From Flintibacter sp. KGMB00164 (GTDB lineage Bacteria; Bacillota; Clostridia; Oscillospirales; Oscillospiraceae): a stretch of DNA of 64,000 nt. The stretch lies in assembly GCF_008727735.1 (NCBI RefSeq), contig NZ_CP044227.1:2830001-2894000 (forward strand). Reading direction: 5' to 3'. The notes under the pieces were generated by a model. That model searched no databases, had not been told where the DNA came from, and saw nothing but the letters and a program-made list of their open reading frames with translations. Each line of letters begins with the position of its first letter. Within the stretch, counting starts at the first letter, position 1. The position numbers and the translations under genes are program-made. Shown here one piece after another: positions 2,625-57,879 of the stretch.

Positions 2625-3215
2625 AACGGGGGGGGCGTTACTTTCTGTACGGACAGAAAGTAACCAAAGAACCGCCGGGGCCGCCTTCGATGAGCGCCTT
2701 CGCGCAGCGGGCGCTCATAGGCGGCTTGCCCCGGACCCCCAGCTACGGGGGACGCCTGCCTGAGGGATTGATTATGGCATCCCGGCGGGCAAAGACAAGA
2801 TCTGTGATTCTTCTTGCCTCGGGGGCACTGGCCCCTACTGGGCGGAAATTTAAAAGTGTCTGCGCTGTACGGGCACCGCCTACTCCGGTATAACCGTGGC
2901 AGCTAGGCAATCGATGACGGCTGCACTAAACAGGTAGGGAAGCAGGAGGCGGTGTACGGATAGAACTACTTGCTCACAAAATTTCGATGGCAGGAAGGCC
3001 CTGTGGCCTGAGAATAGAAGGAAAACAGAACTTGATTTTGCCAGCCGGAAATTACGCACAAACCAAAGTGGCCCACTCTCGTAAATGGGGGACCGGGGGA
3101 AAGGTGACTATGAGCGCCCGCTGCGTGAAGGCGCTCATAGGAACCGTCCCCCGGCGATTCTTTCGTGCCTTTCTGATCGTTCAGAAAGGCACATCGTCTC
3201 CTCCACAGGGCGGCC
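2625..3215 (-). repeat. Composite palindromic repeat, copy A
   Basis: Full two-arm copy in reverse orientation relative to copies B, F and G. The ends are hairpins: TTACTTTCTG/CAGAAAGTAA near 2638-2664 and GTGCCTTTCTG/CAGAAAGGCAC near 3165-3192. Inner hallmarks are the TGAGCGCC/GGCGCTCA hairpins, the CACCGCCTACTC block and the AAACAGGTAGG...GGAGGCGGTGT block. It lies between gerAC and gerAB. Confidence 0.85.
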
Positions 3216-3222
3216 CCCTCTC

Positions 3223-4346
3223 TCACGACTCCTCCATAAATAACAATCTGGTAAGTGAAGTCTCCACCGACACCTGCACCGGCAGTGACGGAAACATCTC
3301 CGGCCACTGCTCCAACAGCTTTTCTCCTCGGGCAGGGTCAGCCATAGCCAGCCGCTGTCCCAGGCCTACACAGTCCGCGCCCCAGCTCTGGAGCCGCTCC
3401 AGGGCCTGGGTGAGGCGCCGCTGCTGACGGCTGTCCACCGCCTGCTTCACCTGCTCCAGATCCTCCTGGCTGAGTTCGCCCTCCACCTCGGCCACCTCGG
3501 CCGTTACCCGGCAGTTCAGGTCCACAGCGGTGAACTGCCCATTCTCCATCTTGGGCGTACACACCAGGGCGGAGCCGGTGACCCGCACTACCACCCGCCC
3601 CTGGGATAGGGGGACCTCCAGCACATCGGAGGGTGCCTGGTTGACCAGCAGCTCCAGCCCCTTGGCACTCTCCCCTCTAGATAGCCCACCAGCACCCCGC
3701 CCTTTAACACCGCATACCCGGCCTCCAGCAGGGCGGTCTGGCCCTCCTGGTCGGTCTCCTGGACGCGGAGGGCGGGCAGATAGGCGCTGCCCCGCTCCAG
3801 CAGGTCAGAGAACACCTCCCCCGCCGTGCGGCTGGCTCCTGCCGCGCCCATCTCGCTGTCCGTTTGAAGGGTGGACAGGCGGTTTTCTACGCCGCTCTCA
3901 CCTCCGGCCTGTACTGCCTGGGCGGCAGTTCCGCCCCGCACCACCCACAGCTGCACGCCCAGTCCCAGCTGGGCGTCCTGGGCAAAGTAGTCCAACACCG
4001 GCCACACGCTCCGCTTGATCAGCCCCTCCCCCAGCAGCAGCTGGTCCACATAGCCGTAAAACACATAGCTGTCGCTAAGGCCCTGCATAGCCAGGCAGGC
4101 GGCGCTGAGGGACTCCCGCTGGGCAGAGAGGACCAGAGAGGGCTGGCTCTCTCCCTGTAGACCATAGGCCCGCTTCCCGGTGGATACGGTGACCTCCACT
4201 TGGTAGTCCCCCTCCCCTGCGTCCACACCCATGGTACGCAGCAGGGCCATGTCCCCCATCTCCCGGGCGTAGGGCAGCAGGGTGGCGCTGCACCCACTGA
4301 GCAGCAGCATCCCGGCCAGAGCCAGGGCGGTCAACGTCACTCTCAC
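3223..4346 (-). CDS. gerAC: Spore germination lipoprotein, GerAC family (frameshifted)
   Basis: C subunit of the GerA-type germinant receptor, a lipoprotein on the outer face of the spore inner membrane. The GTG start at 4346 overlaps the gerAA stop (GTGA). The first residues form a lipoprotein signal with lipobox LSGC (Cys about residue 19). The N-terminal reading runs to about 3680 and then leaves frame; the expected sequence (ESAKGLELLVNQ and on to the stop at 3223) continues in the next frame. One extra G in the four-G run at 3672-3675 would restore a 375-residue protein, the usual length. It is either a pseudogene or a one-base sequence error at a homopolymer. Two separate genes are unlikely, because the joined halves make one normal GerAC. 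Confidence 0.85.
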
Positions 4347-5860
4347 CGCTGATTCCTCCGATTTTTGGTATTCTTGGCCCCATCCCGCCACTTCATCCGG
4401 GGCAGAGGCAGACGCAGCAGACTGGGATGGCCCCGGGGCTGTCCCGCTCCGTTGGTAAAGGGAGCCAGGTAGGGCACCCCAAAGGTCTCCAGCCCCGCCA
4501 GATGGTAAATGAGGGCGGCGCATCCCGCCGCCAGGCCAAACAGTCCGCCTATGCTGGCGGCGATGGCCAGCAGAAAGCGCCACAGCCGCAGCGCGGAAGC
4601 AAAGTCCTGGGATGGCATGGTGTACCCCGCCACTCCCGCAATGGCCACGGCGATGAGCACGGCCGGGGAAACGATATGGGCCTCCACTGCCGCGTTGCCC
4701 ACCACCAGTCCGCCCAGAATAGACACCGTGGCCCCGATGGGGCTGGGCAGGCGCAATCCCGCCTCCTGGAGGACCTCAAAGGCCAGCAGCATGATAAGCA
4801 CCTCAAAGACGGTGGAGAAGGGCACCTCCTGTTTGGCGGCGGCAATGGACAGAGCCAGCTTCACCGGGATGGCCTCCGGGTGAAAGGTGACCAGAGCGAT
4901 ATACAGCCCCGGCACCAGCACCGTAATGACGGCGCAGAACCACCGGATTAGGTTCAGGGCGGAGGCTGTCATCCAGTGAAATGCCCGGTCCTGGCCGGTT
5001 TTGAAGAACTGGTCGATGGTGCCCGGCAGCATCCAGGCAAAGGGCAGCCCGTCGGCCATCACCCCTACCCGCCCCTCCAGCAGTCCCTGGCAGAAGCGGT
5101 CGGGCCGCTGGGTGTAGGGCATCATGGGGAAGGGGGTGTTCAGGTGGTCGGTGAGGTACTCCTCAATGTTGCCCGCCGCCTCCACCCCGTCGATGTCGAT
5201 ATCCCGCAAGCGGCGCTTGACCTGGGCCACCGTGTCCGGGTCGGCGATGCCGTCCAGATAGAGGATATCCACCTGGGTGCGGGACTGCCGCCCCACGATC
5301 TCCTCCTCGATCTTCAGCTGGGTGGCCTTCATGTGGCGGCGGACCATGGAGGTGTTGGTGCGGATGGACTCCACAAAGGACTCCCGCACCCCCTTGAGGG
5401 CAGGCTCGTTGGAGGGCTCCCCCACTCCCCGCTTCTCCTCCGTGACCACCGGGAAGGTGAGGGCCTGTCTTTTCCCGGGAAAGAAAATCACACAGCTGCC
5501 CGCCACCAGGTCGTCGGCCACCTCATCCAGCGTCTCCCGCACCAGGGCGGCTAGGTTATAGAGAGCGCCGTAGCGCAGGCGCTTGAACACCTCGTCCATG
5601 GGTACCCGGCTCAGGGCCTCGTCCTGGGCCAGGGGGCGCAGGATATAGTCGCTCAGGCGCTCGTTGCGGGTCATACCCAGCAGGTAGCACACCGTCACTA
5701 CCCGCTCCCGGTCCCCGTGGAGGTAGATCTCCCGCTTCATAAAGTCGGCGCAGCCTTGAAACACCGCCTCCAAATTCTCCAGGGTGAGAGGGCGGTCGTA
5801 CCGGGGCTCCCGCCGCGGGTGGGGACCGGTGTCCGGGGCTTTGGGCTGAAACGTGGCCAT
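4343..5860 (-). CDS. gerAA: Spore germination protein, GerAA family
   Basis: A subunit of the germinant receptor. The 505-residue protein has the family layout: a soluble N-terminal domain to about residue 270, then several membrane segments around residues 290-480 containing the conserved stretches PSPIGATVSILGG and GNAAVEA. The start at 5860 has a strong ribosome site (AAAGGAGGGG, 4 nt before ATG); a longer reading frame to 5950 has none. It overlaps gerAC by 4 bp, so A and C are translationally coupled. The order A-C-B differs from the classical A-B-C order. Upstream lies a triple-hairpin element belonging to the ferredoxin gene. No clear sigma-G promoter could be assigned. Confidence 0.92.
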   Translation of the reverse strand: MATFQPKAPDTGPHPRREPRYDRPLTLENLEAVFQGCADFMKREIYLHGDRERVVTVCYLLGMTRNERLSDYILRPLAQDEALSRVPMDEVFKRLRYGALYNLAALVRETLDEVADDLVAGSCVIFFPGKRQALTFPVVTEEKRGVGEPSNEPALKGVRESFVESIRTNTSMVRRHMKATQLKIEEEIVGRQSRTQVDILYLDGIADPDTVAQVKRRLRDIDIDGVEAAGNIEEYLTDHLNTPFPMMPYTQRPDRFCQGLLEGRVGVMADGLPFAWMLPGTIDQFFKTGQDRAFHWMTASALNLIRWFCAVITVLVPGLYIALVTFHPEAIPVKLALSIAAAKQEVPFSTVFEVLIMLLAFEVLQEAGLRLPSPIGATVSILGGLVVGNAAVEAHIVSPAVLIAVAIAGVAGYTMPSQDFASALRLWRFLLAIAASIGGLFGLAAGCAALIYHLAGLETFGVPYLAPFTNGAGQPRGHPSLLRLPLPRMKWRDGAKNTKNRRNQR

Positions 5861-5910
5861 GGAACCCCTCCTTTCCCGGCTAGTGTTTGCCTGAAGGGGA
5901 ATAATTATAC

Positions 5911-6028
5911 AAAAAAGGTGGGAGCGACCGGATTGGTCACTCCCACGCATCTTTTTCTTACGGGCGCAGAGGCGAAACGAAGTTTCGCAGAAAGCTTTTT
6001 TGCCTACTTTTTTCTCGAAAAAAGTAGG
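5911..6028 (-). repeat. 3'-end triple-hairpin element T1
   Basis: It starts directly at the ferredoxin stop codon and runs in the same direction. Hairpin 1 (CCTACTTTTTT/AAAAAAGTAGG) is followed by a GCGAAACTTCGTTTCGC hairpin and CTCTGCGCCCG. Hairpin 3 (GTGGGAGTGAC/GTCGCTCCCAC) ends in a U run, so the element should also terminate transcription. Confidence 0.85.
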
Positions 6029-6742
6029 TTAGGTCTCGTCCAAAATCGTTCCGTTGGTGCCGATGGTCACTACCTGCCAGGGGATCATCTTGCCGCTGGC
6101 CTGGAGTGCCTTCTTCACCGCCAGCTCGATGCCGCCGCAGCAGGGCACCTCCATGCGCACCACGGTGACGCTCTTCACCTCGTTGCGCATTAGGATCTCG
6201 GTGAGCTTCTCGCTGTAATCCACGCTGTCCAGCTTGGGGCAGCCCACCAGGGTCACATGGCCCCGGATAAAGCGCTGGTGAAAGTTGGCGTAGGCGTAGG
6301 CGGTACAGTCGGCGGCCACCAGCAGGCGGCAGCCCTGGAAGTAGGGTGCCATGGGGTTGACCAGCTTGATCTGCACCGGCCACTGACTGAGCTGGCTCAC
6401 CGGCTCTCCCTGGGCCACTGGAGCCGCAGCAGGAGCGGCGGCGGGGTGCAGGGTCTTGGCCATCTCCCCGGGGCAGCCGCAGGCCAGAGGCTCCTGGGCC
6501 TTTTTCGCCGCCTGAGCGGCCTTCACCGCCGCCTCGTCGTAGGCGGGAGCCTCCCGCATCTCAAAGGTGATGGCTCCGGTGGGGCAGGCGGGCAGACAGT
6601 CGCCCAGGCCGTCGCAGTAGTCCTCCCGGGTCAGCTTGGCCACCCCGTCCACCATCTGGATGGCACCCTCGTGGCAGGCGGCGGCACAGGCCCCGCAGCC
6701 GTTACATTTACTCTCGTCAATGTGAATGATCTTACGGATCAT
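6029..6742 (-). CDS. Ferredoxin-like 4Fe-4S protein with C-terminal Cys-rich domain
   Basis: Probable cytoplasmic electron carrier or redox sensor; the exact role is unknown. The N-terminal 60 residues are a double ferredoxin fold. The first cluster is complete (Cys13, 16, 19, 23). The second has Cys43, 49 and 53 but Leu where the second ligand should be, so it may hold a 3Fe cluster or use another ligand. A linker rich in Ala and Pro (residues 90-110) follows, then a domain with CGCPG, DCTAY, GCPKLD and VPCCGG, which suggests further metal or thiol chemistry. The product is 237 residues. The start at 6742 follows a GAGGAGGAAG ribosome site. It is transcribed alone and ends in element T1. Confidence 0.85.
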   Translation of the reverse strand: MIRKIIHIDESKCNGCGACAAACHEGAIQMVDGVAKLTREDYCDGLGDCLPACPTGAITFEMREAPAYDEAAVKAAQAAKKAQEPLACGCPGEMAKTLHPAAAPAAAPVAQGEPVSQLSQWPVQIKLVNPMAPYFQGCRLLVAADCTAYAYANFHQRFIRGHVTLVGCPKLDSVDYSEKLTEILMRNEVKSVTVVRMEVPCCGGIELAVKKALQASGKMIPWQVVTIGTNGTILDET

Positions 6743-7200: not shown

Positions 7201-7206
7201 CTCCAC

Positions 7207-8157: not shown

Positions 8158-8180
8158 GCGAAGGTACTCAAATAGAGCTT

Positions 8181-8846
8181 GTGCCTTTCTGAACGATCAG
8201 AAAGGCACGAAAGAATCGCCGGGGGACGGCTCCGATGAGCGCCTTCGCGCAGCGGGCGCTCATAGTCGCCTCTCCCCGGACCCCAATTTACGGGAGCGTG
8301 TCCCTTTGGTTGCTTCGGAAGTTCCGGCGGCCTAAATTTTGACCGTGCATTCCTCTTTACTCGGCCCACGGGGGCCTGCTGCCATCAAAATTTGTAGGTG
8401 CTTGTATTCTACCGTACACCGCCTCCTGCTTCCCTACCTGTTGGGTGCGGCGGTGGTCGGGAGGACCATAGGCTCTCACTTTGCAGCGAGGGCAGCTGTA
8501 CCTTGACAAGGGAATAGGGAATTTAGCGCAAAGCACTGACGCCCCCATCCATTGCCCAGCTGCCACGGCTATGCCAGAGTAGGCGGTGTCATTTCAACCG
8601 CACATCTTCTAAATTTCCACTTTGCAGGCCCCAGTGGGCCGAGGCAAGAAGAACGCAAGGTCTTGTGTTCGGAGCCGCAGGACGCAAGTGCCTATCTTCC
8701 AGGAGGGTGTCCCTCGTAATGGGGGTCTGGGGGGCAGATGACTGTGAGCGCCCGCTCCGCGTAGGCGCTCACCGGAATCAACCCCCAGCGCATTTTTGGT
8801 TCCTTTTTGGGCAAACAAAAAGGAACCCGCCCCGCAGGGCGGAACC
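8181..8846 (+). repeat. Composite palindromic repeat, copy B
   Basis: Full copy in forward orientation. The left end hairpin is GTGCCTTTCTG/CAGAAAGGCAC and the right end is GGTTCCTTTTTG/CAAAAAGGAACC plus a CGCCCCGCAGGGCGG hairpin. The middle holds CTACCTGTTGGGTGCGGCGG and, after extra sequence, AGCTGCCACGGCTATGCCAG. It is about 70 bp longer than other copies because of an insertion around 8465-8560. Confidence 0.85.
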
Positions 8847-13283: not shown

Positions 13284-14060
13284 ATGCTTTCTGAACAATT
13301 GCTGCATACCCTGCTGATCGTCTGCCCCCTGGTCTTTTTGGGCGGACTGGTGGACGCGGTGGCCGGCGGCGGCGGACTGATCACACTGCCCGCCTATCTG
13401 CTGGCCGGCCTGCCCCCCCATGCCGCCTCTGCCACCAATAAGTGCGGCAACGTGTGGGGCACCCTACTGGCCACCTACCGATTCCTCAAGCGGGGTGAGG
13501 TCCATCTCTCCAGCGCGGTGTGCGGCGGCGTGGGCGCTCTGATCGGAGCCTGGGCCGGCGCCAAGCTCAACATGATCATGCCGGAGCGTTACCTCTATTA
13601 TCTGATGTTGATCATCGTGCCGGTGATGGCTGTTTTCCTGCTGTTCAAGCGGGAGTTCGGCACCGAGGACCACTCCCATGAGCTCTCTCCCCGGCGGCTG
13701 CTGATCCTGTCTCTGGGAATCGGGCTGGTCATGGGCTGTTACGACGGCTTCTTCGGCCCCGGCGCAGGCACCTTCCTGATGCTGGCCTTTACCGGGCTGT
13801 GTAAATTTGATCTGCTCACCGCCTCGGGTAATACGAAAGTGGCTAATTCCGCTTCCAATGTGGCCTCGCTGGTCACCTTTGCCCTGGCCGGACAGGTGGT
13901 CTGGTCCGTGGGCATCCCCGCTGCCATCTGCGGCATCGCAGGAGGCTATGTGGGTTCCGGTCTGGCGCTGAAGAATGGAGCGAAGGTCATCCGGCCCATG
14001 TTCTTTGTGGTGCTGGCCCTGCTCACCATCCGCCTGATTTATGATCTGCTTGTCGCATGA
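13284..14060 (+). CDS. TauE/SafE (TSUP) family membrane transporter
   Basis: Predicted exporter of organic or inorganic sulfur anions; the family includes sulfite and sulfoacetate exporters, but the substrate here is unknown. The 258-residue protein has about eight membrane segments and the two family half-motifs: GGLVDAVAGGGGLITLP (residues 20-36) and GCYDGFFGPGAGTFLM (residues 152-167). GGAGG lies 8 nt before the ATG. The gene stands alone and its stop codon runs directly into triple-hairpin element T2. Confidence 0.9.
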   Translation: MLSEQLLHTLLIVCPLVFLGGLVDAVAGGGGLITLPAYLLAGLPPHAASATNKCGNVWGTLLATYRFLKRGEVHLSSAVCGGVGALIGAWAGAKLNMIMPERYLYYLMLIIVPVMAVFLLFKREFGTEDHSHELSPRRLLILSLGIGLVMGCYDGFFGPGAGTFLMLAFTGLCKFDLLTASGNTKVANSASNVASLVTFALAGQVVWSVGIPAAICGIAGGYVGSGLALKNGAKVIRPMFFVVLALLTIRLIYDLLVA

Positions 14061-14180
14061 CCTACTTTTCTTGAAAGAAAAGTAGGCAAAAGAACTTTCC
14101 GCAAAGCTTCGCTTTGCCTCTGCGCCCGAACCAAAAAGATACGTGGGAGTGACATCATCCGTCGCTCCCACGTTTTGTTT
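14061..14180 (+). repeat. 3'-end triple-hairpin element T2
   Basis: Starts at the first base after the exporter stop codon: CCTACTTTTCTTG/AAAGAAAAGTAGG, then CGCAAAGCTTCGCTTTGC, then GTGGGAGTGAC/GTCGCTCCCAC and a T-rich tail. It has the same order and direction as every other copy. Confidence 0.88.
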
Positions 14181-14185: not shown

Positions 14186-14515
14186 TTCTGCCCAGCCACC
14201 CTGGTTCTTCCAGAGTAGGCGGTGTGCGTACAGCGCAGGTATTCGCAAATTTCAGACCCGGGTAGGGCCTAAGGCCCGAGGCAAGAAGGACCAGATGGTC
14301 TTGTTATCGGAGACGCCGGACGCAAGTTCCAAGTTCTCAAGAGGGCGTCCCCCGTAAAATGGGGGCTTGGGGGCAAGCCGCCTATGAGCGCCCGCTGCGC
14401 GAAGGCGCTCATCGAAGGCGGCCCCCAACGCATCTCAAGGTGAATTGCCCCAAAGGGGCAAGAGAGGGTGGCCTGGGCCATTGGTTACTTTCTGGGCGAA
14501 CAGAAAGTAACACAC
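14186..14515 (+). repeat. Composite repeat, copy C (single right arm)
   Basis: Only the right half of the forward element is present, from the AGAGTAGGCGGTGT block through GGCGTCCCCCGTA and the TGAGCGCC/GGCGCTCA hairpin to a TTACTTTCTG/CAGAAAGTAA end hairpin. About 45 bp of extra sequence lies before the end hairpin. Confidence 0.75.
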
Positions 14516-14540
14516 GCCCCCCGGCGCACCGTGTGCGCCT

Positions 14541-15825: not shown

Positions 15826-16021
15826 GGTTCCGCCCTGCGGGGCGAACCCCAGAGGCGAAGCGAAGCTCCGTATAAAGCTTTTTTGCTTCCTTTTTTCACG
15901 AAAAAAGGAAGTGGGAGCGACGGAATCCGTCACTCCCACTGGAAATCTATTTACGGGCGCAGAGGCAAAGCGAAGCTTTGCAGGAAGTTCTTTTGCCTAC
16001 TTTTCTTTCAAGAAAAGTAGG
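15826..16021 (-). repeat. 3'-end triple-hairpin element T3 with a partial second copy
   Basis: A complete element (15910-16021) starts at the thiolase stop codon. Behind it, in the same direction, a variant of hairpins 1 and 2 (CTTCCTTTTTTC/GAAAAAAGGAAG, then AGCTTCGCTTCGCC) repeats, ending in the GGTTCGCCCCGCAGGGCGG hairpin typical of the composite repeat. Confidence 0.8.
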
Positions 16022-17281
16022 TCAGCACTTCTCGAAGATGGTGGCAACGCCCTGGCCGCCGCCGATGCACAGAGTAGCCAGACCCTTCTTGGCCTCGTCG
16101 CGCTTCTGCATCTCGTGCAGCAGGGTGACGATGATACGGGCGCCGGAAGCGCCGACGGGGTGACCCAGAGCGATGGCACCGCCGTTGACGTTGACCTTGC
16201 TCATATCAAAGTGCAGCTCACGAGCCACAGCGATGGACTGAGCAGCAAAGGCCTCGTTGGCCTCGATCAGGTCCATATCCTCGATCTTCAGGCCGGCCTT
16301 CTCCATAGCCTGACGGGAAGCGGGCACAGGACCCACGCCCATGATCTTGGGATCCACGCCGCCCTGGCCCCAGGAGACCAGCTTGGCCATGGGCTTCAGA
16401 CCATACTTCTCCACGGCCTCGCCGGAAGCCAGCACGATGGCGGCAGCGCCGTCGTTGATGCCGGAGGCGTTGGCAGCGGTGACACGCTGGACGTGCTTCT
16501 TGGTGTCGGCCTCATGGACCTGGGTGACCTCAAAGGTGTGGACGATCTCGTCCTCCACGCCCTCGGGACCCACGGGGAAGGCGCCGCGCAGCTTGGAGAT
16601 ACCCTCGGCGGTCACACCGGCGCGGGGGAACTCGTCCACCTTGAACTCCACCATTTCCTTCTTCTTCTTGATCATGATGGGCACGATCTCGTCGTCGAAG
16701 CGGCCGGCCTTCTGAGCAGCCTCAGCCTTATTCTGAGAGGAAGCGGCGAACTCGTCCAGCTCCTCGCGGGTGATGCCCCACACGTCGCAGATGTTCTCGG
16801 CGGTGGTGCCCATGTGATAGTTGTTATAAGCGTCCCACAGGCCGTCCTTGATCATGGTGTCCACGACCTTCTTGTCGCCCATGCGGGCGCCCCAGCGCTC
16901 GTCAGGCAGAGCAAAGGGAGCAGCGGACATGTTCTCGGTGCCGCCGGCCAGGACCACATCAGCGTCGCCGGCCAGGATGCTGCGGGCGCCCTCGATGACG
17001 CTCTTCATACCGGAGCCGCACACCATACCCACGGTGTAAGCGGGAACCTGGAAGGGGATACCGGCCTTCACAGCGGCCTGGCGGGCAGGGTTCTGGCCCA
17101 GACCAGCGGTGAGGATGCAGCCGAACATAACCTCGTCTACCTGCTCGGGCTTCACGCCGGCGCGGTTGAGGGCTTCCTTCATGACCACAGCGCCCATCTC
17201 AGCGGCGGGCACATCCTTCAGGCTTCCGCCAAAGGAACCGATGGCGGTGCGGCAGCAGTTGACAACATAGACTTCTTTCAT
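16022..17281 (-). CDS. thlA: Acetyl-CoA acetyltransferase (thiolase)
   Basis: Condenses two acetyl-CoA to acetoacetyl-CoA, the first step of the clostridial butyrate route, or works in reverse in degradation. Motifs: MVCGSGMKS with the acyl-Cys88, [19 protein letters not shown] (base His) and CIGGGQG with the second Cys near the C terminus. The protein has 419 residues, about 27 more than usual; the extra part ([20 protein letters not shown] and neighbours) sits just before NASGINDGA. The start at 17281 has GGAGG 9 nt upstream. It has its own promoter and ends in element T3. No other butyrate gene is nearby, so the pathway assignment is inference. Confidence 0.93.
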
Positions 17282-20862: not shown

Positions 20863-21453
20863 GGTTCCGCCCTGCGGGGCGGGTTCCTTTCTGGATCACC
20901 AGAAAGGAACCAAAGAGTGACTGGGGGTGTGTCTCCGAGGAACGCCTCGCCGCAGGCGGGCGTTCCAAGTCGCCCCACCCCCAGCCCCCCGTTTTACGGG
21001 GGACGCCCTCCTGAAAGATAGCACTTGCGTCCGGCGGCTCCGAAAACAAGACCTTGCGTCCTTCTTGCCTCGGCCCACTGGGGCCTACTGGGTAGAAATT
21101 TAAAGTATCTGCGCTGTACGGACACCGCCTGCCCTGGCATAACCGTGGCAGCTAGGCAGTTGTTGGGCGCCTTTATACGACCACCGCCGCACCAAACAGG
21201 TAGGCAGGCACCAGGCGGTGTACGATAGAAGCAGGCGTTCACAAATTTTGATGGAAAAAGGCCCCTGTGGGCCGAGAGTAGAAAGGCGCACGATCAAAAT
21301 TTAGGCCGCCGGAAAGTTTGTAACAACCAAAGGGACATGCCCCCGTAGACAGGGGGACCGGGGGAAAGGTGACTGTGAGCGCCCGCTCCGCGAAGGCGCT
21401 CACCGGAGCCGTCCCCCGGCGATCTTTGGTTCTTTCCATCGCTGGAAAGAACA
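20863..21453 (-). repeat. Composite palindromic repeat, copy D
   Basis: Full copy in reverse orientation. It begins with the GGTTCCGCCCTGCGGGGCGG hairpin and GGTTCCTTTCTG/CAGAAAGGAACC, and ends at GGTTCTTTCC/GGAAAGAAC. It fills most of the gap between the gntR operon and proC. Confidence 0.87.
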
Positions 21454-21585
21454 TCCCCCGTCTCCCCAAGCGGCCTAAGGCCGCTCTCCCCCCTTCATTT
21501 CTTTCAACTTTCTTCATCTCCCCCTTCCCCCGAAAAAAAGAACGTGTTATCATAGGGTCACCAGACAAAAGGAGGTATTTTCCCT

Positions 21586-25378: not shown

Positions 25379-25390
25379 ATGTTTTGTGTA

Positions 25391-25711
25391 GAAATCGGCC
25401 TCCTACTTGAATGCACGACAACATCTGCACAAAACAGGAAGGGACGCAGGAGGCGGTGTGTGATCGAAGCAGCGACTTGCAAATTTTGATGGCAGCAGGC
25501 CCCAGTGGGCCGAGAGGAGAGGGCTGCACGGTCAAAACTTAGGCCGCCGGGGATTACAAAACAACCGAAGGGGCACACCCCCGTAATGGGGGTCTGGGGG
25601 CAATGACTGTGAGCACCGCCGCAGGCAAGGTGCTCACCGGAAGCGGCCCCCAGCGGGTCTTTGGTTCCTTTCTGACCGCTCAGAAAGGAACCCGCCCCGC
25701 AGGGCGGAACC
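25391..25711 (-). repeat. Composite repeat, copy E (single arm)
   Basis: Only one arm, equal to the left arm of the forward element in reverse orientation, from the AAACAGGAAGG and GGAGGCGGTGT blocks through the TGAGCACC/GGTGCTCA hairpin to GGTTCCTTTCTG/CAGAAAGGAACC and CGCCCCGCAGGGCGG. It lies between elements T4 and T5. Confidence 0.8.
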
Positions 25712-25719
25712 CTCTCAAT

Positions 25720-25834
25720 AAAAAAGTGGGAGCGACCTGAGCAGTCACTCCCACAAAAAGTCTCACATCCGGGCGAGGAAGGGAAACGAAGTTTCCCGCC
25801 AAGTTCTTTGCCAAGCTTTCTTACAAGAAAGCGG
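25720..25834 (-). repeat. 3'-end triple-hairpin element T5
   Basis: Runs in the direction of the TPR gene. Hairpin 1 is of the second type (CCGCTTTCTTG/AAGAAAGC) and contains the last codons and the stop codon of that gene. GGGAAACTTCGTTTCCC and GTGGGAGTGAC/GTCGCTCCCAC follow, with a U run. Confidence 0.85.
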
Positions 25835-28625: not shown

Positions 28626-28854
28626 GCATACCTGAACGGAAAATTTGACCCCCTCCAGGGGATTTTTTTCAAAAACTTTCGTTTTCTTCACTTTCCTCCA
28701 AAAAGGTAGGAAAAAGGAGTGGGAACAGCAGGGCAAACTGTGCACAGCGACGAGGGTTTTTGTATAAAGCGCATTCTTTTAACAATATCCTTTCTATTAG
28801 TTTGCCCATTTTTCAAGGGGAAAAACCTCCTTTTGTGGTGGTAAACATTTACGT

Positions 28855-39725: not shown

Positions 39726-40303
39726 GTTCCGCCCTGCGGGGCGGGTTCCTTTTTGTTTGCCCAAAAAGGAACCAAAAATGCCCTGGGGGTATGTCTCCGG
39801 CGAACGCCTCGCCAAAGGCGGGCGTTCACAGTCGCCATTCCCCCAGCCCCCCAATTGCGAGAGTGGGCCACTTTGGTTGATGCATAATTTCCGGCGGCCT
39901 AAGTTTTGACTGTGCATCCCTCTCTTCTCAGGCCTTAGGCCCTTTTGCCATCAAAATTTGCGGGCTGTTGCTTCTATCGCACGCCGCCTGGTGCCTGCCT
40001 TCCTGTTGGGTGCGGCGGTGGCTGGGCGGACCAGCTGCCACGGCTCTGCCAAGGTAGGCGGTGTCTGTACAGCGCGGACGCGTTCAAATTTCCACCTCGC
40101 AGGCCCCAGTGGGCCGAGGCAAGAAGGACGCAAGGTCTTGTCTTCGGAGCCGCCGGACACAAGTACCAAGGAAACAAGAGGGCGTCCCCCGTAACCGGGG
40201 GTCCAGGGGGGCGACGCCTATGAGCGCCCGCTGCGCGAAGGCGCTCATCGAAGGAGTCCCCATGGCGCATCTTTGGTTCCTTTCTGTGCGAGCAGAAAGG
40301 AAC
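39726..40303 (+). repeat. Composite palindromic repeat, copy F
   Basis: Full forward copy. It begins with TTCCGCCCTGCGGGGCGG and GGTTCCTTTTTG/CAAAAAGGAACC, and ends with GGTTCCTTTCTG/CAGAAAGGAAC. The middle contains CCTGTTGGGTGCGGCGGTGG and AGCTGCCACGGCTCTGCCA. It follows element T7 directly. Confidence 0.88.
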
Positions 40304-40430
40304 AATCGTCCCCTTCCCACAGGGCAAACCTCCTTCTAAAACAGGAATAAATTTCCTTCTCTCCTTGATTCCCTAAAATATGGACAGGCCATGGTCTATA
40401 CTGGCAGAACAAGGAAGGAGCGAGACAACC

Positions 40431-51515: not shown

Positions 51516-52094
51516 ATGCTGATGCTATTGGCAGCACTGCAAAGTGAATATGGCGTCCCCGACCCCCAGCAGCTGGAAGAGCTGATGGCGGGCCTGGCCG
51601 CCGGAGACCGGGAATCTCTGGCTCAGCTGTACCATCGCACCCGGGCGGCGGTATACGGCCTGGCCCTGTCCATTCTGGGCAGCGGACACGACGCGGAGGA
51701 CGTGACCCAGGACACCTACGTGACCGCCTGGGAGAAGTGCCACCTCTACCGCCCTCAGGGCACCCCCATGGCCTGGCTGCTCACCATCACCCGGAACCTG
51801 GCCCGCATGAAGCTGCGGGACCGGGGCCGCACCCAGGACCTTGGAGAGGAGCAGTGGCACGCTATCCCCGCCCAGTCCCCCTCGGTGACCCCCGAGGACC
51901 GGGCCGTGCTGGAGGCCGCTCTCAACATCCTCAGCGACCAGGAACGGCAGATCGTGGTGCTCCACGCCGCGGCCGGTCTCAAACACCGGGAGATCGCCAA
52001 GCTGCTGGAGCTGCCTTTGCCCACCGTGCTGTCCAAGTATCGCAGAGCCCTGTCAAAACTCAAGACCAAACTGGAAGGAGATGACGCCCTATGA
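51516..52094 (+). CDS. ECF-type RNA polymerase sigma factor
   Basis: Alternative sigma factor of 192 residues. Region 2 is about residues 30-95 (HRTRAAVYGLALSILGSGHDAEDVTQDTYVTAWEK) and region 4 about 130-185 (LNILSDQERQIVVLHAAAGLKHREIAKLLELPLPTVLSKYRRAL); region 3 is absent, as in ECF factors. The start has AGGAG 9 nt upstream. The stop overlaps the start of the next gene (ATGA), a membrane anti-sigma factor that is very probably its partner. The signal that frees it is unknown. Confidence 0.92.
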   Translation: MLMLLAALQSEYGVPDPQQLEELMAGLAAGDRESLAQLYHRTRAAVYGLALSILGSGHDAEDVTQDTYVTAWEKCHLYRPQGTPMAWLLTITRNLARMKLRDRGRTQDLGEEQWHAIPAQSPSVTPEDRAVLEAALNILSDQERQIVVLHAAAGLKHREIAKLLELPLPTVLSKYRRALSKLKTKLEGDDAL

Positions 52095-53662
52095 CAGACC
52101 ATGAGTTGGAACGCAGGCTGCGCACCGCCCTGGATCACGCCGCCCCCAACGACCTGGAGGGCGTGCTCTCCCGGTGTGAAACGGGGAAAGGAACTGTGAT
52201 CGACATGACAAATGCCGTGGAAACGAAGAAGAAAAAGAAACGCTGGGCTCCCCTGGCGGCGGCCGCCTGTCTGGCCCTGGTGCTGGTTGGCGGCGGCGGA
52301 GGCTACTACTATTACAGCGCCAACAACGCCGTGGCCTCTCTGGTATCCCTGGACGTGAACCCCAGCATCCAGCTGGAGGTTAATAAAAACGAAAAAGTTC
52401 TCTCTGCCACCCCCATGAACGACGACGGAGCGGAGATTTTGGACGGCATGGACCTGAAAGGCACCCAGGCCGACGTGGCTATGTACGCTATCATCGGCTC
52501 CCTCCTGCAGCACGGCTATGTGGATGAGCTGGCCAACTCCATCCTCATCACCGTGGAAGACGACGACCAGGCGCGGGGCGAGAAGCTCCAGCAGGAGCTC
52601 ACCGCCCAGGCCGACGCCGCCCTGGCCAATGCTCAGGTGAACGGCGCGGTGCTGGCTCAGACCCTCCAGAACAGCGAGGAGCTCAGTCAAAAGGCCCAGG
52701 AGTACGGCATTTCCACTGGCAAGGCGGCCCTGATCCAGGCCATCGTGGCGGGCAGCAACAACACCAAGACCTTTGAGGATCTGGTGGGCCTGTCCATCAA
52801 CGAGCTGAACCTCCTCTATACCGCCCAGGCTCCTCTGGAAGGACAGACTTCCGGCAATGAGCAGAACACCGGCACAGCCAACACCGCCCCCATTACCACC
52901 TCCGGCTCCGCCAGCCAGAGCGCCTACATCGGCCTGGAGGCCGCCAAGGAGGCCGCTTTGAAGCACGCTGGGGTCTCCGCCTCTGACGCCACCTTTGTGG
53001 AGGCCGAGTACGACTATGACGATGGACGCATGGTCTATGAGGTGGAATTCCACGTGAAGGGCACCGAATACGACTATGAGATCGACGCCCAGACTGGGGC
53101 GGTGGTGAAGTATAAGAACGAGCAGAACGGCGCCAACACCGGCGCCTCCGGTTCTGCCAATACCTCCTCCTTCATCGGGGAGAGCGCCGCCAAGGCCGCC
53201 GCCCTCAACCACGCCGGGGTCAGCGAGAGCAGCACCAAATACTGCAACGCCTGGCTGGAGTACGACGACGGCCGCGCCGAGTGCTATGAGGTGGAATTTA
53301 TGGCGGGCAACACCCGCTATGAGTACAAGATCGCTCTCACCTCCGCCACCGTGCTGGAGAGCGAGCGGGAGAGCTACGGCGGCTCTGGAAGCTCTGGACA
53401 ATCCACCGGCCAGAGCGGCAGCCAGACCAGCGGCGGCTCCGGCACTTCCTCCACCGACATCGGTGCGGAAAAGGCCAAATCCATCGCCCTCAACCACGCG
53501 GGGGTCAGCGCCAGCCAGACCTCTGAGATGAAGGTGGAGCAGGACTGGGACGACGGCGTTCTGGAGTATGAAGTGGAGTTCAAGGCCGGCGGGGTGGAGT
53601 ATGAGTACACCATCCACGGCGGAACGGGACAGATTTTGAAGTACGAATCCGATCGGGATTAA
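52091..53662 (+). CDS. RsgI-like membrane anti-sigma factor with three PepSY domains
   Basis: Single-pass membrane protein of 523 residues, coupled to the ECF sigma gene. Residues 1-50 are cytoplasmic and basic; a membrane segment lies at about 52-75. Next is a domain with VASLVSLDVNPSIQLEVNKNEKVLSATPMNDDG, the pattern of the RsgI extracellular domain, where the Asn-Pro bond is a known self-cleavage site in relatives. The C-terminal half has three PepSY-like repeats, each with a KxxALNHAGVS helix and an E(Y/F)xxDGxxxYEVEF strand (about 280-345, 365-425, 455-520), joined by Ser/Gly/Gln linkers. It probably senses an envelope signal. A terminator follows. Confidence 0.85.
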   Translation: MTDHELERRLRTALDHAAPNDLEGVLSRCETGKGTVIDMTNAVETKKKKKRWAPLAAAACLALVLVGGGGGYYYYSANNAVASLVSLDVNPSIQLEVNKNEKVLSATPMNDDGAEILDGMDLKGTQADVAMYAIIGSLLQHGYVDELANSILITVEDDDQARGEKLQQELTAQADAALANAQVNGAVLAQTLQNSEELSQKAQEYGISTGKAALIQAIVAGSNNTKTFEDLVGLSINELNLLYTAQAPLEGQTSGNEQNTGTANTAPITTSGSASQSAYIGLEAAKEAALKHAGVSASDATFVEAEYDYDDGRMVYEVEFHVKGTEYDYEIDAQTGAVVKYKNEQNGANTGASGSANTSSFIGESAAKAAALNHAGVSESSTKYCNAWLEYDDGRAECYEVEFMAGNTRYEYKIALTSATVLESERESYGGSGSSGQSTGQSGSQTSGGSGTSSTDIGAEKAKSIALNHAGVSASQTSEMKVEQDWDDGVLEYEVEFKAGGVEYEYTIHGGTGQILKYESDRD

Positions 53663-53668
53663 GAAGAA

Positions 53669-53703
53669 AGCCCTGGCTGTCAACGGCAGCCAGGGCTATT
53701 TGT
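53669..53703 (+). terminator. Terminator of the sigma/anti-sigma operon
   Basis: AGCCCTGGCTG with CAGCCAGGGCT and TATTTGTTT, directly behind the stop. Confidence 0.9.
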
Positions 53704-53713
53704 TTGGGGAAAA

Positions 53714-54309
53714 GTTACGCCCTGCGGGGCGTCCTACTTTGCCCACGGCGGCAAAGTAGGCAAAACGCCGCCGGGGGCCGCCTTCGAGGAACACTTTGCC
53801 TGCGGCAGTGTTCCTAGGCGGCTTGCCCCCGGTCCCCCAATTACGGGGGCGGGTCCCTTTGAGCGTTTGGTCCGTTTCGGCGGCCTAAGTTTTGACCGTG
53901 CATCCCTCTACTCTCGGCCCACAGGGGCCTTTTTCCATCAGAATTTAAAGCTATTTTCTTCTAACGCACACCGCCTGGCGCCTGCCTACCTGTTGGGTGC
54001 GGCGGTGGTCGGGCGAACCAGCTGCCACGGTTTTGCCAGGGTAGGCGGTGTCCGTACAGCGCAGATACTTTTAAATTTCTGACCCGGCAGGGGCCTGTGT
54101 CCCCGAGGCAAGAAGGACCAGCGGTCTTGTCTTTGCCCGCCGGATAGAATTGCCCATTTCCCAGGAGGGCGTCCCCCGTAACCGGGGGTCTGGGGGGCAG
54201 ATGACTGTGAGCGCCCGCTCCGCGAAGGCGCTCACCGGAATCAACCCCCAGTCACTCTTTGGTTCCTTTCTGGTGATCCAGAAAGGAACCCGCCCCGCAG
54301 GGCGGAACC
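53714..54309 (+). repeat. Composite palindromic repeat, copy G
   Basis: Full forward copy. The left end hairpin is a variant (CCTACTTTGCC/GGCAAAGTAGG); the right end is GGTTCCTTTCTG/CAGAAAGGAACC plus CGCCCCGCAGGGCGG. The right end touches the stop codon of the zincin gene. Confidence 0.87.
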
Positions 54310-54310
54310 T

Positions 54311-54679
54311 TTACTCATCTCCCCTGGCCTGCTTTAAAAACTCCGCATCCTTATCATCCAGAGCATGCAGCCCCGCAAAATCCTCCATGTGGTGGGTAAA
54401 CTCATGGGCCACAGTGGCGAAGATCTCATCCTTCCAGGTCTCCTCGTCCTCGTCAGCAAGCAGAGCGGCAAAGGAGCCGTAGTAGAGTACAATATACCGC
54501 CCCAGCATATCATTGCAGTACTCCCCCATGATGTACATCTCCCCTGGGGGAAACGCCGGGTCGGGCAGGGCCTGCTCCTCCAGCTGGATGCCTCCGTCCA
54601 GCTCTTCAAAAAACGCGTCCGGGAACTGCTGGGCGATCTCCTCCAGCCAGTCCCCCATGGTCTCGTAGCTGGGCACCAT
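54311..54679 (-). CDS. Zincin-like metallopeptidase domain protein
   Basis: A 122-residue protein with a zinc metallopeptidase motif HEFTHHMED (about residues 91-99) after a VAHE strand, as in the small Zincin_1 family. No signal peptide, so it is cytoplasmic. Substrate unknown; activity is not certain since many family members are uncharacterised. The start at 54679 has AAAGGAGG 7 nt upstream. It is divergent from the C39 peptidase gene. Confidence 0.82.
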   Translation of the reverse strand: MVPSYETMGDWLEEIAQQFPDAFFEELDGGIQLEEQALPDPAFPPGEMYIMGEYCNDMLGRYIVLYYGSFAALLADEDEETWKDEIFATVAHEFTHHMEDFAGLHALDDKDAEFLKQARGDE

Positions 54680-54843
54680 GGCAAACGCCTCCTTTTCTTC
54701 CTTTTCCTCAGGATATCAAAAACTATGCTCCCATACAAGGGTCAGAAAACCTTCGAAAAAACTTAAGAATTATTCCATATCAATTTAATCTTTCTGCGGT
54801 ATGGTATAGAAGACATCCCTTGGACAGAAAAGAGGTTTTCCCT

Positions 54844-55695
54844 ATGCCATCCCGTTCCCGCGAGGCTGCCGCCTCCACAAAGAAAAAACGTCGCCGTTCC
54901 CCCCTGCCCTGGATTCTTCTGGTCCTGGTGGCAGTGGTGGGAGGCTATCGCCTCTATACCGGCTATTTCCCCTTCCAGCCCCGCCACTCCCTGGACGGCC
55001 AGACCATCAGCAGCGAGACTCTCTCCCAGCTGCGTGAACTGGCCAAGGAGGAGACCCAGGCTAAATACATCCTGAAAAATCTGGACGACTACCCCGCCAA
55101 TCTGCTCTCCCTGCTTGCCCGCAACAGTGAAACTCTGGACTTTGTGGCGGGCTATCCCCAGCACAAGCACGACACCCCCGCCGACACGGTGGGCGAGGTG
55201 ACAAAGGGAGAGTTCCCCCTGCTCATACAGTGGGATATGCGCTGGGGCTACGCCAACTACGGCGATGGTCTGATGGCTCTCAACGGCTGCGGCCCCACCG
55301 CCCTGTCCATGGTGATCTGCGGCCTCACTGGAGACAACACCATCACCCCCTACACCGTGGCCCAGTACGCTGACAGCCAAGGGCTGTATGTGGACGGCGT
55401 GGGCACCAGCTGGGATCTGATGCGCACAGGAGCCGAACACTTCGGTCTCACCGCCAAGGAGCTGCCCCTGGACGAGGGCGTGGTCACCCGCGCTCTGAAA
55501 AACGGCCAGCCCATCATTTGCAGCGTCGGCCCCGGCGACTTTACCACCAGCGGCCACTTTATCGTGTTGGTGGGCATGGAGGACGGCAAAATTCGGGTCA
55601 ACGATCCCAACCGCCACTCCACCAGCTCTCAGCTGTGGGACTACGACACCCTGGCCGGACAGATCAACAATCTGTGGGCCTACTCCCTGGCCTGA
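54844..55695 (+). CDS. Exported C39-like cysteine peptidase
   Basis: A 283-residue protein with a basic N terminus and one membrane segment (about residues 22-40, PWILLVLVAVVGGYRLY), so the domain is probably outside the cell. The C-terminal 160 residues are a Peptidase_C39_2 fold: Gln in IQWDMRWG, catalytic Cys in NGCGPTALSM (about residue 146), His in SGHFIVLVG and Asn-Asp in RVNDPNR. The start is set at 54844 (MPSRSREA), although the ribosome site (AGAGG) is weak. It is followed by the serpin gene at 125 bp, with a separate TATAAT in between. Confidence 0.88.
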   Translation: MPSRSREAAASTKKKRRRSPLPWILLVLVAVVGGYRLYTGYFPFQPRHSLDGQTISSETLSQLRELAKEETQAKYILKNLDDYPANLLSLLARNSETLDFVAGYPQHKHDTPADTVGEVTKGEFPLLIQWDMRWGYANYGDGLMALNGCGPTALSMVICGLTGDNTITPYTVAQYADSQGLYVDGVGTSWDLMRTGAEHFGLTAKELPLDEGVVTRALKNGQPIICSVGPGDFTTSGHFIVLVGMEDGKIRVNDPNRHSTSSQLWDYDTLAGQINNLWAYSLA

Positions 55696-55721
55696 CCCTT
55701 CCCTGCCGGAGCAAAACGGGG

Positions 55722-55727
55722 TATAAT
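55722..55727 (+). promoter_or_regulatory. -10 box of the serpin gene
   Basis: A perfect TATAAT, 94 bp before the serpin start; the -35 is poor. Confidence 0.5.
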
Positions 55728-55820
55728 AGAGATAAGAATCCGTGCTTAGATTTGGAACCCCTCCACCCTGTATTCCGTCTAAATCAGTAGAGAGGAAACA
55801 CCGGAAAGGAGTGTACTGCC

Positions 55821-57203
55821 ATGAAACGAACGGTATCCATCTTGCTGGCCTCTGCCCTACTCTTATCTCTGGCAAGCTGCGGCCCCAAAGGGGAGTCTTC
55901 CGATCCCCAGGGCAGTCAGAGCTCGTCCCAGAGCCAGGCCGAGGCCGTCTTTACCACCCTGAAGGAGCCCACCTACCCCGAATTTCCCCAGTTTCCCCAG
56001 CAGCCCGAGGACGGCCCTGACGCTGACTGGGACGCCTATTATAACGCCTACGACGAGTATTACAGCGCGGTGATGGAGCTGCGCAGCGGCGGCATCCCTG
56101 AGGGCACCCGCTTTGCCCTGAGCGACTTTGCCGCCAAGAGCACTCCCCTGGCTCTGGCAGGCCAGGAGGGGAAAAACGCCGCTTACTCCCCTGCCTCCCT
56201 GTGGGCGGCTCTTGCCATGCTGGTACCCTGCGCCCAGGGCGACAGTCAGGCCCAGCTGCTCTCCGCCCTGGGGGTGGCCGGTCAGCGGGAGCTCACCGAC
56301 CAGGTGGGTCGCCTGTGGAAGGGCCTGTATACCAACGACGGGGTGAGCAGCCTGATTTTGTCCAACTCCGTGTGGCTCAATGATGCTCAGGAGGGGAACT
56401 ACGTCCAGTCCACCCTGGACACGTTGGGCCGGGACTACTTTGCCGGGGTATACACCACCCCCATGGGCACTGCCGGAGCCAATCAGGCCATCACGGACTG
56501 GATTTCCAAGGAGACAGGCGGTCTCATCGGCGGAGATGGGCCGGTGGTGGAGACCACACCGGACACCCTGCTTCTGCTGGCCTCCTCCCTCTACTACAAG
56601 GCAGCCTGGCTGGAGCCCTTTGATGCCTCCCAGACCCAGGCGGGAGACTTCACCACCGCCGCAGGGAATACCGTCTCCGCAGACTTTATGCACGCTTCCA
56701 AAGCGGGTAGTTTTCTGAAACGGGATGGCTATCAGGCTGCTGCTCTGGAAACCCAACTGGGCGAGATGTTCTTCGTCCTGCCAGAGGAGGGCACAGCTCC
56801 CGAGACGCTGCTCAATGACCCCAACTTCCTGTCCAGCCTCAGCTCCGGAGCCGCCGATGTGCAGTACGGTACGGTGGAGTGGTCGGTACCCAAGTTTGAC
56901 CTGTCCGCCGACCTGGACCTGATGAACACCCTGAAATCTCTGGGCATCACCGACCTGCTGGATGGCGACAAAGCGGATCTCAGCGGTCTCACCTCTCTGG
57001 ACGCCTATCTGAACCAGGCCCAGCAGATGACCCGGGTGAGTGTAAACGAAGAAGGCGTGGAGGCCGCCGCCGTTACCATATTGGGCATGGGAGCGGGCGC
57101 GCCGCCTGACGAAACCTGCATCATGGAGCTGAATCGCCCCTTCCTGTTCGTACTGCGCAGCCAGGGTGTGACCCTATTTGTCGGCGTGGTGAATGAGGTG
57201 TAA
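55821..57203 (+). CDS. Serpin lipoprotein
   Basis: Protease inhibitor of the serpin family, 460 residues. A lipoprotein signal with lipobox LASC (Cys20) puts it on the cell surface, followed by a Ser/Gln/Pro linker of about 70 residues. The serpin fold then runs to the end: KNAAYSPASLWAALAML, NSVWLND, LLLASSLYYKAAW, and the hinge NEEGVEAAAVT followed by a reactive loop ILGMGAGAPPDETC and NRPFLFVL. The small-residue hinge suggests it is an inhibitor, not a non-inhibitory member. The target protease cannot be told from the loop; a host or neighbouring protease is possible. Confidence 0.93.
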   Translation: MKRTVSILLASALLLSLASCGPKGESSDPQGSQSSSQSQAEAVFTTLKEPTYPEFPQFPQQPEDGPDADWDAYYNAYDEYYSAVMELRSGGIPEGTRFALSDFAAKSTPLALAGQEGKNAAYSPASLWAALAMLVPCAQGDSQAQLLSALGVAGQRELTDQVGRLWKGLYTNDGVSSLILSNSVWLNDAQEGNYVQSTLDTLGRDYFAGVYTTPMGTAGANQAITDWISKETGGLIGGDGPVVETTPDTLLLLASSLYYKAAWLEPFDASQTQAGDFTTAAGNTVSADFMHASKAGSFLKRDGYQAAALETQLGEMFFVLPEEGTAPETLLNDPNFLSSLSSGAADVQYGTVEWSVPKFDLSADLDLMNTLKSLGITDLLDGDKADLSGLTSLDAYLNQAQQMTRVSVNEEGVEAAAVTILGMGAGAPPDETCIMELNRPFLFVLRSQGVTLFVGVVNEV

Positions 57204-57221
57204 TTCTTTCTCTGATATAGC

Positions 57222-57262
57222 AAGCGTCCCCGCAGGGTGAGTTCCTGCGGGGACGCTTTTTG
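57222..57262 (+). terminator. Terminator of the serpin gene
   Basis: AAGCGTCCCCGCAGG with CCTGCGGGGACGCTT and a T run. Confidence 0.93.
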
Positions 57263-57271
57263 TGTTTGGAG

Positions 57272-57879
57272 GGTTCCGCCCTGCGGGGCGAGGAGAGGCG
57301 ATGTTCCTTTCTGAGCGATCAGAAAGGAACCAAAGAATCGCTGGGGGTTGATTCCGGTGAGCGCCTTCGCGGAGCGGGCGCTCACAGTCATCTGCCCCCC
57401 AGGCCCCCATTACGGGGGACGCCCTCCAGAAAGATTGGTTTTGACCTCCCGGCGGGCAAAGACAAGATCTGTGATTCTTTTTGCCTCGGGCCTTAGGCCC
57501 TTTATGTGCAAAATTTGGTGGAAAGGTGCGTTGAAATAACACCGCCTACTCTGGCAAAACTGTGGCGGTTAGTCAGCTCGACCACCGCCGCACCAAACAG
57601 GTAGGCAAGCACCAGGCGGCGTGCGTTAGTGTGGCAATGCCTTCAAATTTTGATGGTAGCAGGCCCCTGTGGGCCGAGAATAGGACGGAAACCGGTCTTG
57701 ATTTTGCCCGCCGGAAAACACCTAAGGCCCAAAGGGACACGCCCCCGTAAACAGGGGTCCGGGGAAAAGGTGACTGTGAGTGCCCGCTCCGCGAAGGCGC
57801 TCACCGGAGCCATTCCCCGGCGGCGTTTTGGTTCCTTTGCCGCCGTGGGCAAAGGAACCCGCCCCGCAGGGCGGAACCC
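57272..57879 (-). repeat. Composite palindromic repeat, copy H
   Basis: Full copy in reverse orientation, starting with GGTTCCGCCCTGCGGGGCG and ending with CGCCCCGCAGGGCGGAACC. It is followed directly by the end of element T8. Confidence 0.87.

Follow-up and report, generated by a model that had tools for sequence, protein, structure and literature searches.

The complete, 2,917,795-base chromosome of the Oscillospiraceae bacterium Flintibacter sp. KGMB00164 (contig NZ_CP044227.1; genome G000 in our set) carries a family of self-complementary elements of 300–600 bases, which we describe here starting from the 64,000-nucleotide stretch between positions 2,830,001 and 2,894,000 (hereafter, the window). 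The unit of the element is a structured arm of ~300 bases, used singly or, mostly, as an inverted pair. The loop of its terminal hairpin pairs with a segment just downstream, crossing the hairpin stem; in this clade, the copies form an evenly spaced array around the replication origin, and the sites of the array outlast the letters that occupy them. Copies are intergenic with a preference for convergent gene ends, their alleles are mosaic, sister species differ in the presence or absence of the element and neighbouring copies in the core of the array lie at least 2.9 kb apart. We favour, at a probability of about one half, a selfish or gene-converting non-autonomous family comparable to the bacterial interspersed mosaic elements (BIMEs).

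A first-pass annotation, made from the letters of the window, had listed eight copies (A–H), and repeat finding with an iterative profile search recovered all of them at nearly the same positions. The profile search also returned the orientations it had given (B, F and G one way; A, D and H the other; C and E single arms). All six full copies match the profile on both strands over nearly their whole length, as expected from the palindromes it had described, and the eight copies sum to about 6.8% of the window, in line with its estimate of 6–7%. These were 8 of the 33 loci in the genome, so that origin clustering, even spacing and loop pairing lay outside the view of the annotation. The 33 loci (24 full palindromes of ~590 bp and 9 single arms of ~300 bp) come from a whole-genome BLAST with copy G followed by an iterative profile limited to a fetched 384 kb. 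A covariance model of the outer arm, run over the whole genome with 150 of 1,450 first-look candidates scored, found 57 arms, all at these same loci. Every one of the 33 copies is intergenic, none overlapping a predicted gene by more than 30 bases, in agreement with the earlier statement that they encode no shared protein. Genes were predicted with a home-made hexamer finder, on which the spacing p-values below depend.

Fold of the arm and the crossing loop pairing

From the outside in, the arm is composed of an often present GC hairpin at its outer end (P0), a hairpin with an 11-bp stem and a 6-base loop, shorter in a type-f variant (P1), a CAAAGA-type linker, four bases that complement the P1 loop, a nested hairpin (P3/P4), a further hairpin of the form CCCCC..TTACGGGGG (P5) and an inner block (CTCGGCCCA..GGGGCC, AAATTT, ACACCGCCT). 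Copy G folds better than its shuffles both as RNA (z −9.5) and as DNA (z −9.1), with 0 of 100 shuffles as good in each case. One arm of four copies in this genome (25188, 35262, 77577 and 2792275) contains, at a similar place, a hairpin insert of ~52 bases (CCCCCTGTCAGGGGG..GGCCCGAAGGGCC), a repeat within the repeat.

Of 94 collected arms, 78 passed a length filter and were aligned (alignment A1); the seven type-f arms among them were excluded from the cell counts for P1 and its loop and included in the covariation scores. In the other 71 arms, 770 of 773 P1 stem cells are Watson–Crick and 260 of 284 loop cells are paired, counts that do not represent independent events because P1 alleles travel between copies as cassettes. 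The four loop-pairing positions show the pair types CG/TA, GC/CG/AT, CG/AT/GC/TA and CG/TA/AT/GC, respectively, and of the 21 non-standard cells, 16 are split evenly between two positions (8 each) and seem to come from one subtype. The covariation score of the arm helices is 0.338; shuffling the 3′ letters lowers it to 0.136 and sliding the partners by 1–3 columns to 0.091 or less. Arms and covariation are thus consistent across the copies, and the annotation was right that stem differences preserve pairing. For the loop helix alone, over all 78 arms, the score is 0.689, compared with 0.196 after shuffling and no more than 0.116 after sliding. One of five covariation measures for the arm helices, further pair types, was not above shuffles (184/500 as high), and neither were the numbers of covarying pairs (4; 236/500 as high) and pair types (12; 175/500) in the loop helix.

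An independent test of the loop pairing used a pattern in which stem and linker were fixed and loop and partner left free. Scanned through a collection of species genomes, it retrieved 75 stretches, all titled as Oscillospiraceae, a genus therein (Angelakisella being one title), or unassigned Clostridia, Ruminococcaceae, Bacillota or uncultured bacterium. Outside G000 and its sister species (G014), 63 matches gave 35 distinct loop/partner combinations, each with at least three of the four pairs possible (18 with three, 17 with four); the mean of 3.49 compares with 2.18 after permutation, and 0 of 10,000 permutations were as good. The 12 sister-species stretches left out of this test would bring the combinations to 41. 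As the loop pairing crosses the P1 stem, it implies a pseudoknot or an alternative hairpin on one strand.

An 11-bp stem with short linkers suits the geometry of an H-type RNA pseudoknot, and the annotation had considered structured RNAs. The structure it suspected is strongly supported, but the RNA as such is not. If the elements were structured RNAs or mRNA 3′-end elements acting in termination or RNA stability, the palindrome would offer the same fold from either side, which accords with the strong fold, the preference for convergent 3′ ends, a terminator-like GC hairpin with a T run within copy G and the 14 terminator-like sites between window positions 53500 and 58200 (5.2 in shuffles). 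Against this, 22 single arms were examined and the 9 lying between tandem genes divide into 4 sense and 5 antisense, a count on which we rejected a sense-strand 3′-UTR role. In arm orientation and summed over helices, G–U cells (36) do not exceed C–A cells (85, mostly in P5), and the C–A excess would fit only an RNA read outwards. At gathering scores, Rfam returned only rRNA and tRNAs over the window, so that no curated family covers the copies; in the part 53600–58100 of the 53500–58200 region, with E up to 1, three matches appeared, far below gathering scores. No promoter-like site was found over 53500–58200. An RNA function also gives no reason for the clustering around the origin described below, and we consider it quite improbable.

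Spacing and gene context around the origin

The DnaA domain is encoded at 259–735 of the chromosome, and the GC skew of the sampled stretches changes there from negative on the left to mostly positive on the right. Within 150 kb of dnaA lie 29 of the 33 loci (P about 6e-25 against a uniform spread) or, counted as arms with the covariance model, 52 of 57, the other 5 being at four distant loci. In the core of the array (−85 to +78 kb), the element occupies 10 of 16 convergent gaps, 15 of 78 tandem gaps and 1 of 15 divergent gaps (convergent versus other gaps, Fisher p 0.0004).

The 26 core copies are 2.9–14.5 kb apart (mean 6.5 kb, minimum 2.86 kb), with a coefficient of variation (CV) of 0.467, whereas for random intergenic sets the CV is about 0.86 and the minimum averages about 0.74 kb. 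Among 20,000 random sets, 8 were as even and none had as wide a minimum; with divergent gaps omitted, the numbers were 7 and 1. Null pools with gap-size limits of 20–200 bases, with or without divergent gaps, gave p ≤0.005 for the CV and ≤0.00055 for the minimum, and a null stratified by gap class gave 0.0012 and 0.00005. A second hairpin repeat, with 19 merged loci in the core, served as a control and lacks this evenness (CV 0.758, p 0.30). This repeat has 25 of its 45 merged loci within 150 kb of dnaA, a smaller share than the element has (Fisher p 0.0027); because it too is enriched there, origin enrichment is only partly special to the element.

In the window, this second repeat, also palindromic, occurs at 5907–6029, 14060–14176, 15850–16022, 25717–25838, 28851–28972 and 57881–58003. 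It consists of a GTGGGAGCGAC..GTCACTCCCAC hairpin, then a CTACTTTT..AAAAGTAG hairpin and then CAAAAGAAC; it often adjoins the element and replaces it at some sites of the sister species, and its second hairpin and linker resemble P1.

The consensus of parS is a 16-base TGTTTCACGTGAAACA-like site. In the fetched stretches, three perfect parS-like sites and one with one mismatch lie inside the array, between 2,898,405 and 2,901,444, and five counterparts are present in the sister species, with a similar cluster on its contig C58. The sites fall at 2,898,405–2,898,483 and at 2,901,444, one of them 113 bases past a single-arm copy (2,901,056–2,901,331).

In the genus as a whole, 37 of 64 genomes contain arms, from 1 to at least 54 per genome, and inverted pairs recur in G011, G019, G040 and G046. 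An order-level sample has arms in 15 of 147 genomes, G000 included, across nine genera, others weakly. In Intestinimonas assemblies (L143, L175, L161, L202, L197 and L185), two arms point their P1 ends at each other across about 85 bases, opposite to the layout in G000. In the complete genome G011, 6 of the 8 loci lie no more than 150 kb from dnaA (P 9e-6), and in the CALWZP assembly 4 of 12 pattern stretches share one 79,495-base contig, one of them (L182) carrying dnaA. For 63 loci of other assemblies (12 of 75 were set aside as belonging to G014), 20 have genes of the G000 origin region and 2 have genes from control stretches totalling 100 kb, a comparison that is suggestive only, because gene conservation differs between regions. 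Origin clustering throughout the genus was rejected: G019 shows none, in G016 it is weak, with 2 of 7 arms less than 150 kb from dnaA, and the one arm in G007 lies away from the origin. G007 also has 16 equal-scoring matches to the DnaA ATPase family, each a 277-aa open frame, dispersed over the chromosome and perhaps helper ATPases of insertion sequences (IS).

Persistence of sites, turnover of letters and possible modes of spread

Of the 48 arms of the sister species, 40 are on six contigs that are collinear with the origin region of G000, their flanks being 80–96% identical. The remaining 8 lie on seven contigs, in pieces that, within the limits used, contain no gene of the G000 origin region or of the control stretches. 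Contigs C6, C18 and C22 were read to 40, 40 and 20 kb, and shared sites were counted by hand. The element is present in the sister species at 20 of the 29 sites of the G000 origin region and missing from 9, and five loci are found in the sister species only; for one of the 20 shared sites (2855383), which adjoins a local inversion, only the right flank matches. Six of the nine vacated sites retain a P1 hairpin on its own, fragments of arms or a remnant of an end (11624, 25188, 43188, 67351, 2832629 and 2850864, the last two by eye), and two sites carry the other repeat family in place of the element (2869726 and 2883714). Two array sites of the sister species contain extra DNA, a locus of ~1.4 kb (C2:60633–62010) and an interval of ~1.9 kb with a solo P1 (C2:56048–57986).

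In the core, 17 of the 26 sites are common to both species (P 4e-10, with 109 candidate sites of which 21 are taken in the sister species). The arms at shared sites are hardly more alike (identity 0.603, 52 pairs) than those at different sites (0.593, 2,020 pairs), outer arms up to 98% identical are found at different sites and terminal alleles at shared sites mostly differ, few being of one type (e.g. 77577 and 2895219). Only 2 of 30 sister-species arms are closest to the arm at their own site; therefore, sites persist while their sequences are exchanged or replaced. The sister species also keeps the spacing: over 27 loci, 0 of 20 gaps are below 2.8 kb, against 5.0–5.4 expected (p 0.0008–0.002), a test that is not fully independent because of the shared core sites. 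Sites present in one species only keep their distance as well, 9 of 9 in G000 (p 0.00025) and 5 of 5 in the sister species (p 0.043).

Both the clustering and the even spacing, the latter robust to the stricter and class-stratified nulls and absent from the control repeat, have made the chromosome-organisation sites named in the annotation more credible, if unproven. The elements would then serve the host as structured palindromes every few kilobases around oriC and parS, acting as topological insulators, as way-marks for gyrase or condensin or as anchors, under selection for location, spacing and fold and not for letters. The gaps of the sister species, the distance kept by lineage-specific sites and the parS-like sites with their counterparts all point the same way. 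Across the genus, however, copy number runs from no arm found to at least 54; G019 lacks the clustering, in G016 it is weak, and the other hairpin repeat is origin-enriched too. We know of no protein that binds the element, and any host role could be assigned only tentatively; we regard this one as possible and place it second to a selfish or gene-converting family. A more specific form is unlikely in our view: an origin-centred array of structure-recognised sites, with a folding element every ~3–14 kb over about 160–240 kb around oriC and parS, in which letters are freely exchanged, lost sites are replaced at new positions with the same even spacing and shape and spacing are what a nucleoid or replication factor recognises, so that the organising element is defined by fold and not by sequence.

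As a selfish or gene-converting family, the element would be non-autonomous DNA recognised by its folded shape rather than its sequence and landing at the 3′ ends of genes. Copies could exchange modules by gene conversion or by structure-guided copying via single-stranded DNA at replication forks, and by this exchange hairpin alleles would move as complete cassettes. The substrate of mobility is probably folded single-stranded DNA, the sequences are likely to be replaced by exchange or conversion and not by fast point mutation, and the origin bias and the spacing may reflect where copies arise or are tolerated. The annotation's suggestion of non-autonomous mobile elements agrees with the presence and absence of copies between sister species, the mosaic modules, the inverted arms and the lack of coding; what it does not find is a clear target duplication or a matching transposase.

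Several observations weigh against this preferred reading. The Y1 transposase domain (Y1_Tnp) was not found in G010, which has at least 54 arms, and has one marginal match in the sister species; both are draft genomes that may miss the gene, and other transposase classes were not searched. No consistent target duplication was seen when occupied and empty sites at seven loci were compared by eye. The wide arm-to-arm intervals of L083 and L167 hold small helix-turn-helix genes and no transposase. In G019, which lacks origin clustering, 3 of 20 pieces (35 of 37 arms) carry a gene of the G000 origin region: 11 such genes are on C8, which carries dnaA, one is on C15 and one on a C11 piece, and the other 17 pieces have none. 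Finally, selfish spread alone leaves unexplained why the spacing is even and why 17 of 26 core sites are shared.

Candidate drivers and sources were also considered and rejected. G000 has seven Y1_Tnp matches, none within 150 kb of dnaA, and with the Y1 results from G010 and the sister species this led us to reject RAYT/IS200 linkage as a general driver. Neither wide interval qualified as an autonomous version: L167 (6184–7281, ~1.1 kb) has a small HTH_3 open reading frame (ORF) and one arm of just 25 bits, and L083 (1501–3121, ~1.6 kb) has an HTH_3 ORF and a DUF6809-like ORF just below the cut-off. The HTH_3 genes may be chance neighbours or cargo. A plasmid or phage origin found no support either: at distant sensitivity, copy G matched none of 72,556 plasmid and 50,697 phage records.

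A further candidate is a family of miniature inverted-repeat transposable elements (MITEs) moved by a conventional DDE transposase and now immobile; the by-eye reading of target sites gave one possible 5-base match, at the C6 site of the sister species. The clustering would then be left over from local hopping close to the origin, and near neighbours would have been lost through recombination between copies. Inverted arms, the lack of coding, empty sites and relatives in other species would fit such a family. Its ends, however, are nested hairpins with exchanged alleles and not a fixed terminal inverted repeat, no consistent target duplication was seen and a parent transposon was not met in searches that covered Y1 transposases only. 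Immobile MITEs seem to us quite improbable.

If the array is functional, this gut lineage with its sporulation genes offers a directly testable case of bacterial chromosome organisation in which repeated folded DNA takes the place of a protein-binding word. If the family is selfish, it is a repeat that keeps its structure while exchanging letters and settles around the origin at a distance from its own copies. Under either reading the even spacing calls for explanation, and it can be sought in other repeat families.

The copies in the window are listed in Table 1. Between copies G and H, a serpin is encoded at 55821–57203; serpins are uncommon in bacteria. The gene at 52091–53662, with three internal DNA repeats at 52903–53515, encodes a protein of 523 aa that has PepSY stretches and whose central domain is RsgI-like, and a 1368-aa FtsX-type permease at 58003–62109 has a long repetitive stretch at about 59761–61266. 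Spore-germination and SpoIIP genes are also present in the window.

Table 1. Copies of the element in the window and pairing features of copy G, in window positions, with the state of the corresponding site in the sister species
Feature	Positions	Strand	Description and basis	Site in sister species
Copy A	2629..3213	-	Full palindromic element flanked by two minus-strand genes; profile match on both strands	Element absent; short end remnant by eye
Copy B	8175..8845	+	Full element; profile match	Occupied, with different terminal hairpin alleles
Copy C	14187..14526	-	Single arm between convergent genes; profile and covariance model	Occupied
Copy D	20864..21460	-	Full element; the only one of 33 between divergent genes	Element absent; solo P1-like hairpin by eye
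Copy E	25383..25710	-	Single arm between convergent genes; profile and covariance model	Single arm at the same right flank, next to a local inversion
Copy F	39726..40326	+	Full element; profile match	Other hairpin-repeat family instead
Copy G	53714..54308	+	Full element between convergent genes; query for genome searches	Other repeat family instead
Copy H	57273..57877	-	Full element between convergent genes; profile match	Single arm
P1 terminal hairpin, copy G left arm	53733..53760	+	11-bp stem, 6-base loop; from the letters	
Loop half of the loop/downstream (pseudoknot-type) pairing, copy G left arm	53746..53749	+	From the letters	
Downstream half of the same pairing, copy G left arm	53767..53770	+	From the letters	
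Outer core, copy G right arm (P1, loop pairing, nested P3/P4 hairpin, P5)	54168..54295	-	Covariance model R1, 130.0 bits	

Comparison with known systems

In searches of an open-access library we found no description of these elements, as the annotation had supposed. A likeness to parS, the site of ParB, lies in the palindromic form and the proximity to the origin; parS-like sites with up to two mismatches lie outside the elements, and the element is not parS. The ram sites of RacA are dense near the Bacillus subtilis origin (PMC6593407), but ram is a protein-binding motif and the element a 600-base fold with variable letters. BIME-2 in Escherichia coli show properties of strong gyrase sites (PMC6379681). 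Both ram/RacA and BIME-2/gyrase are analogies for a possible host role and not tests of one.

With MITEs such as the Correia elements (PMC10969869), the element shares its short, non-coding, intergenic and multi-copy nature and its inverted ends; terminal inverted repeats without coding capacity are indeed what we find. It differs in having no consistent target duplication, no parent transposase met in a genome-wide search for Y1 only, far more internal structure and an exchange of end alleles.

Compared with the CGTC-tagged repetitive extragenic palindromes (REPs) and the RAYT-linked TIR families (PMC3733652), the likeness is that a palindromic family can lack a dedicated transposase, as the CGTC repeats do, and that such repeats lie mainly downstream of genes. 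The flanks could be compared for 79 of the 94 collected arms, those with a P1 pattern match: CGTC is present in none of the 79 arm-strand flanks and its complement GACG in 26, so that the opposite strand may carry a CGTC tag past the hairpin. Size, structure, the origin array and the phyla listed for CGTC repeats differ as well.

The closest likeness is to REPINs and BIMEs, which are RAYT-linked inverted pairs of REPs with a unit of 20–50 bases (PMC3116915, PMC8266576). In both cases palindromic units lie between genes and at gene ends as inverted pairs (24 of the 33 loci here, all 33 being intergenic), are mosaic and non-coding and may form hairpins in single-stranded DNA or RNA, and singlets are likely to be remnants. 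The arm of the element has about 300 bases and not 20–50, although P1 alone (28 bases) is REP-sized, and GTAG occurs in 2 of the 79 arm flanks (14 bases before P1). REP doublets are described as random in extragenic space (PMC8266576, PMC3116915), whereas the element has no linked RAYT and is origin-clustered and evenly spaced. Its loop/downstream pairing has no counterpart that we met in the parts of the REPIN and BIME literature consulted (PMC3116915, PMC8266576). We conclude that the element works like a large BIME or REPIN, yet we do not class it as one.

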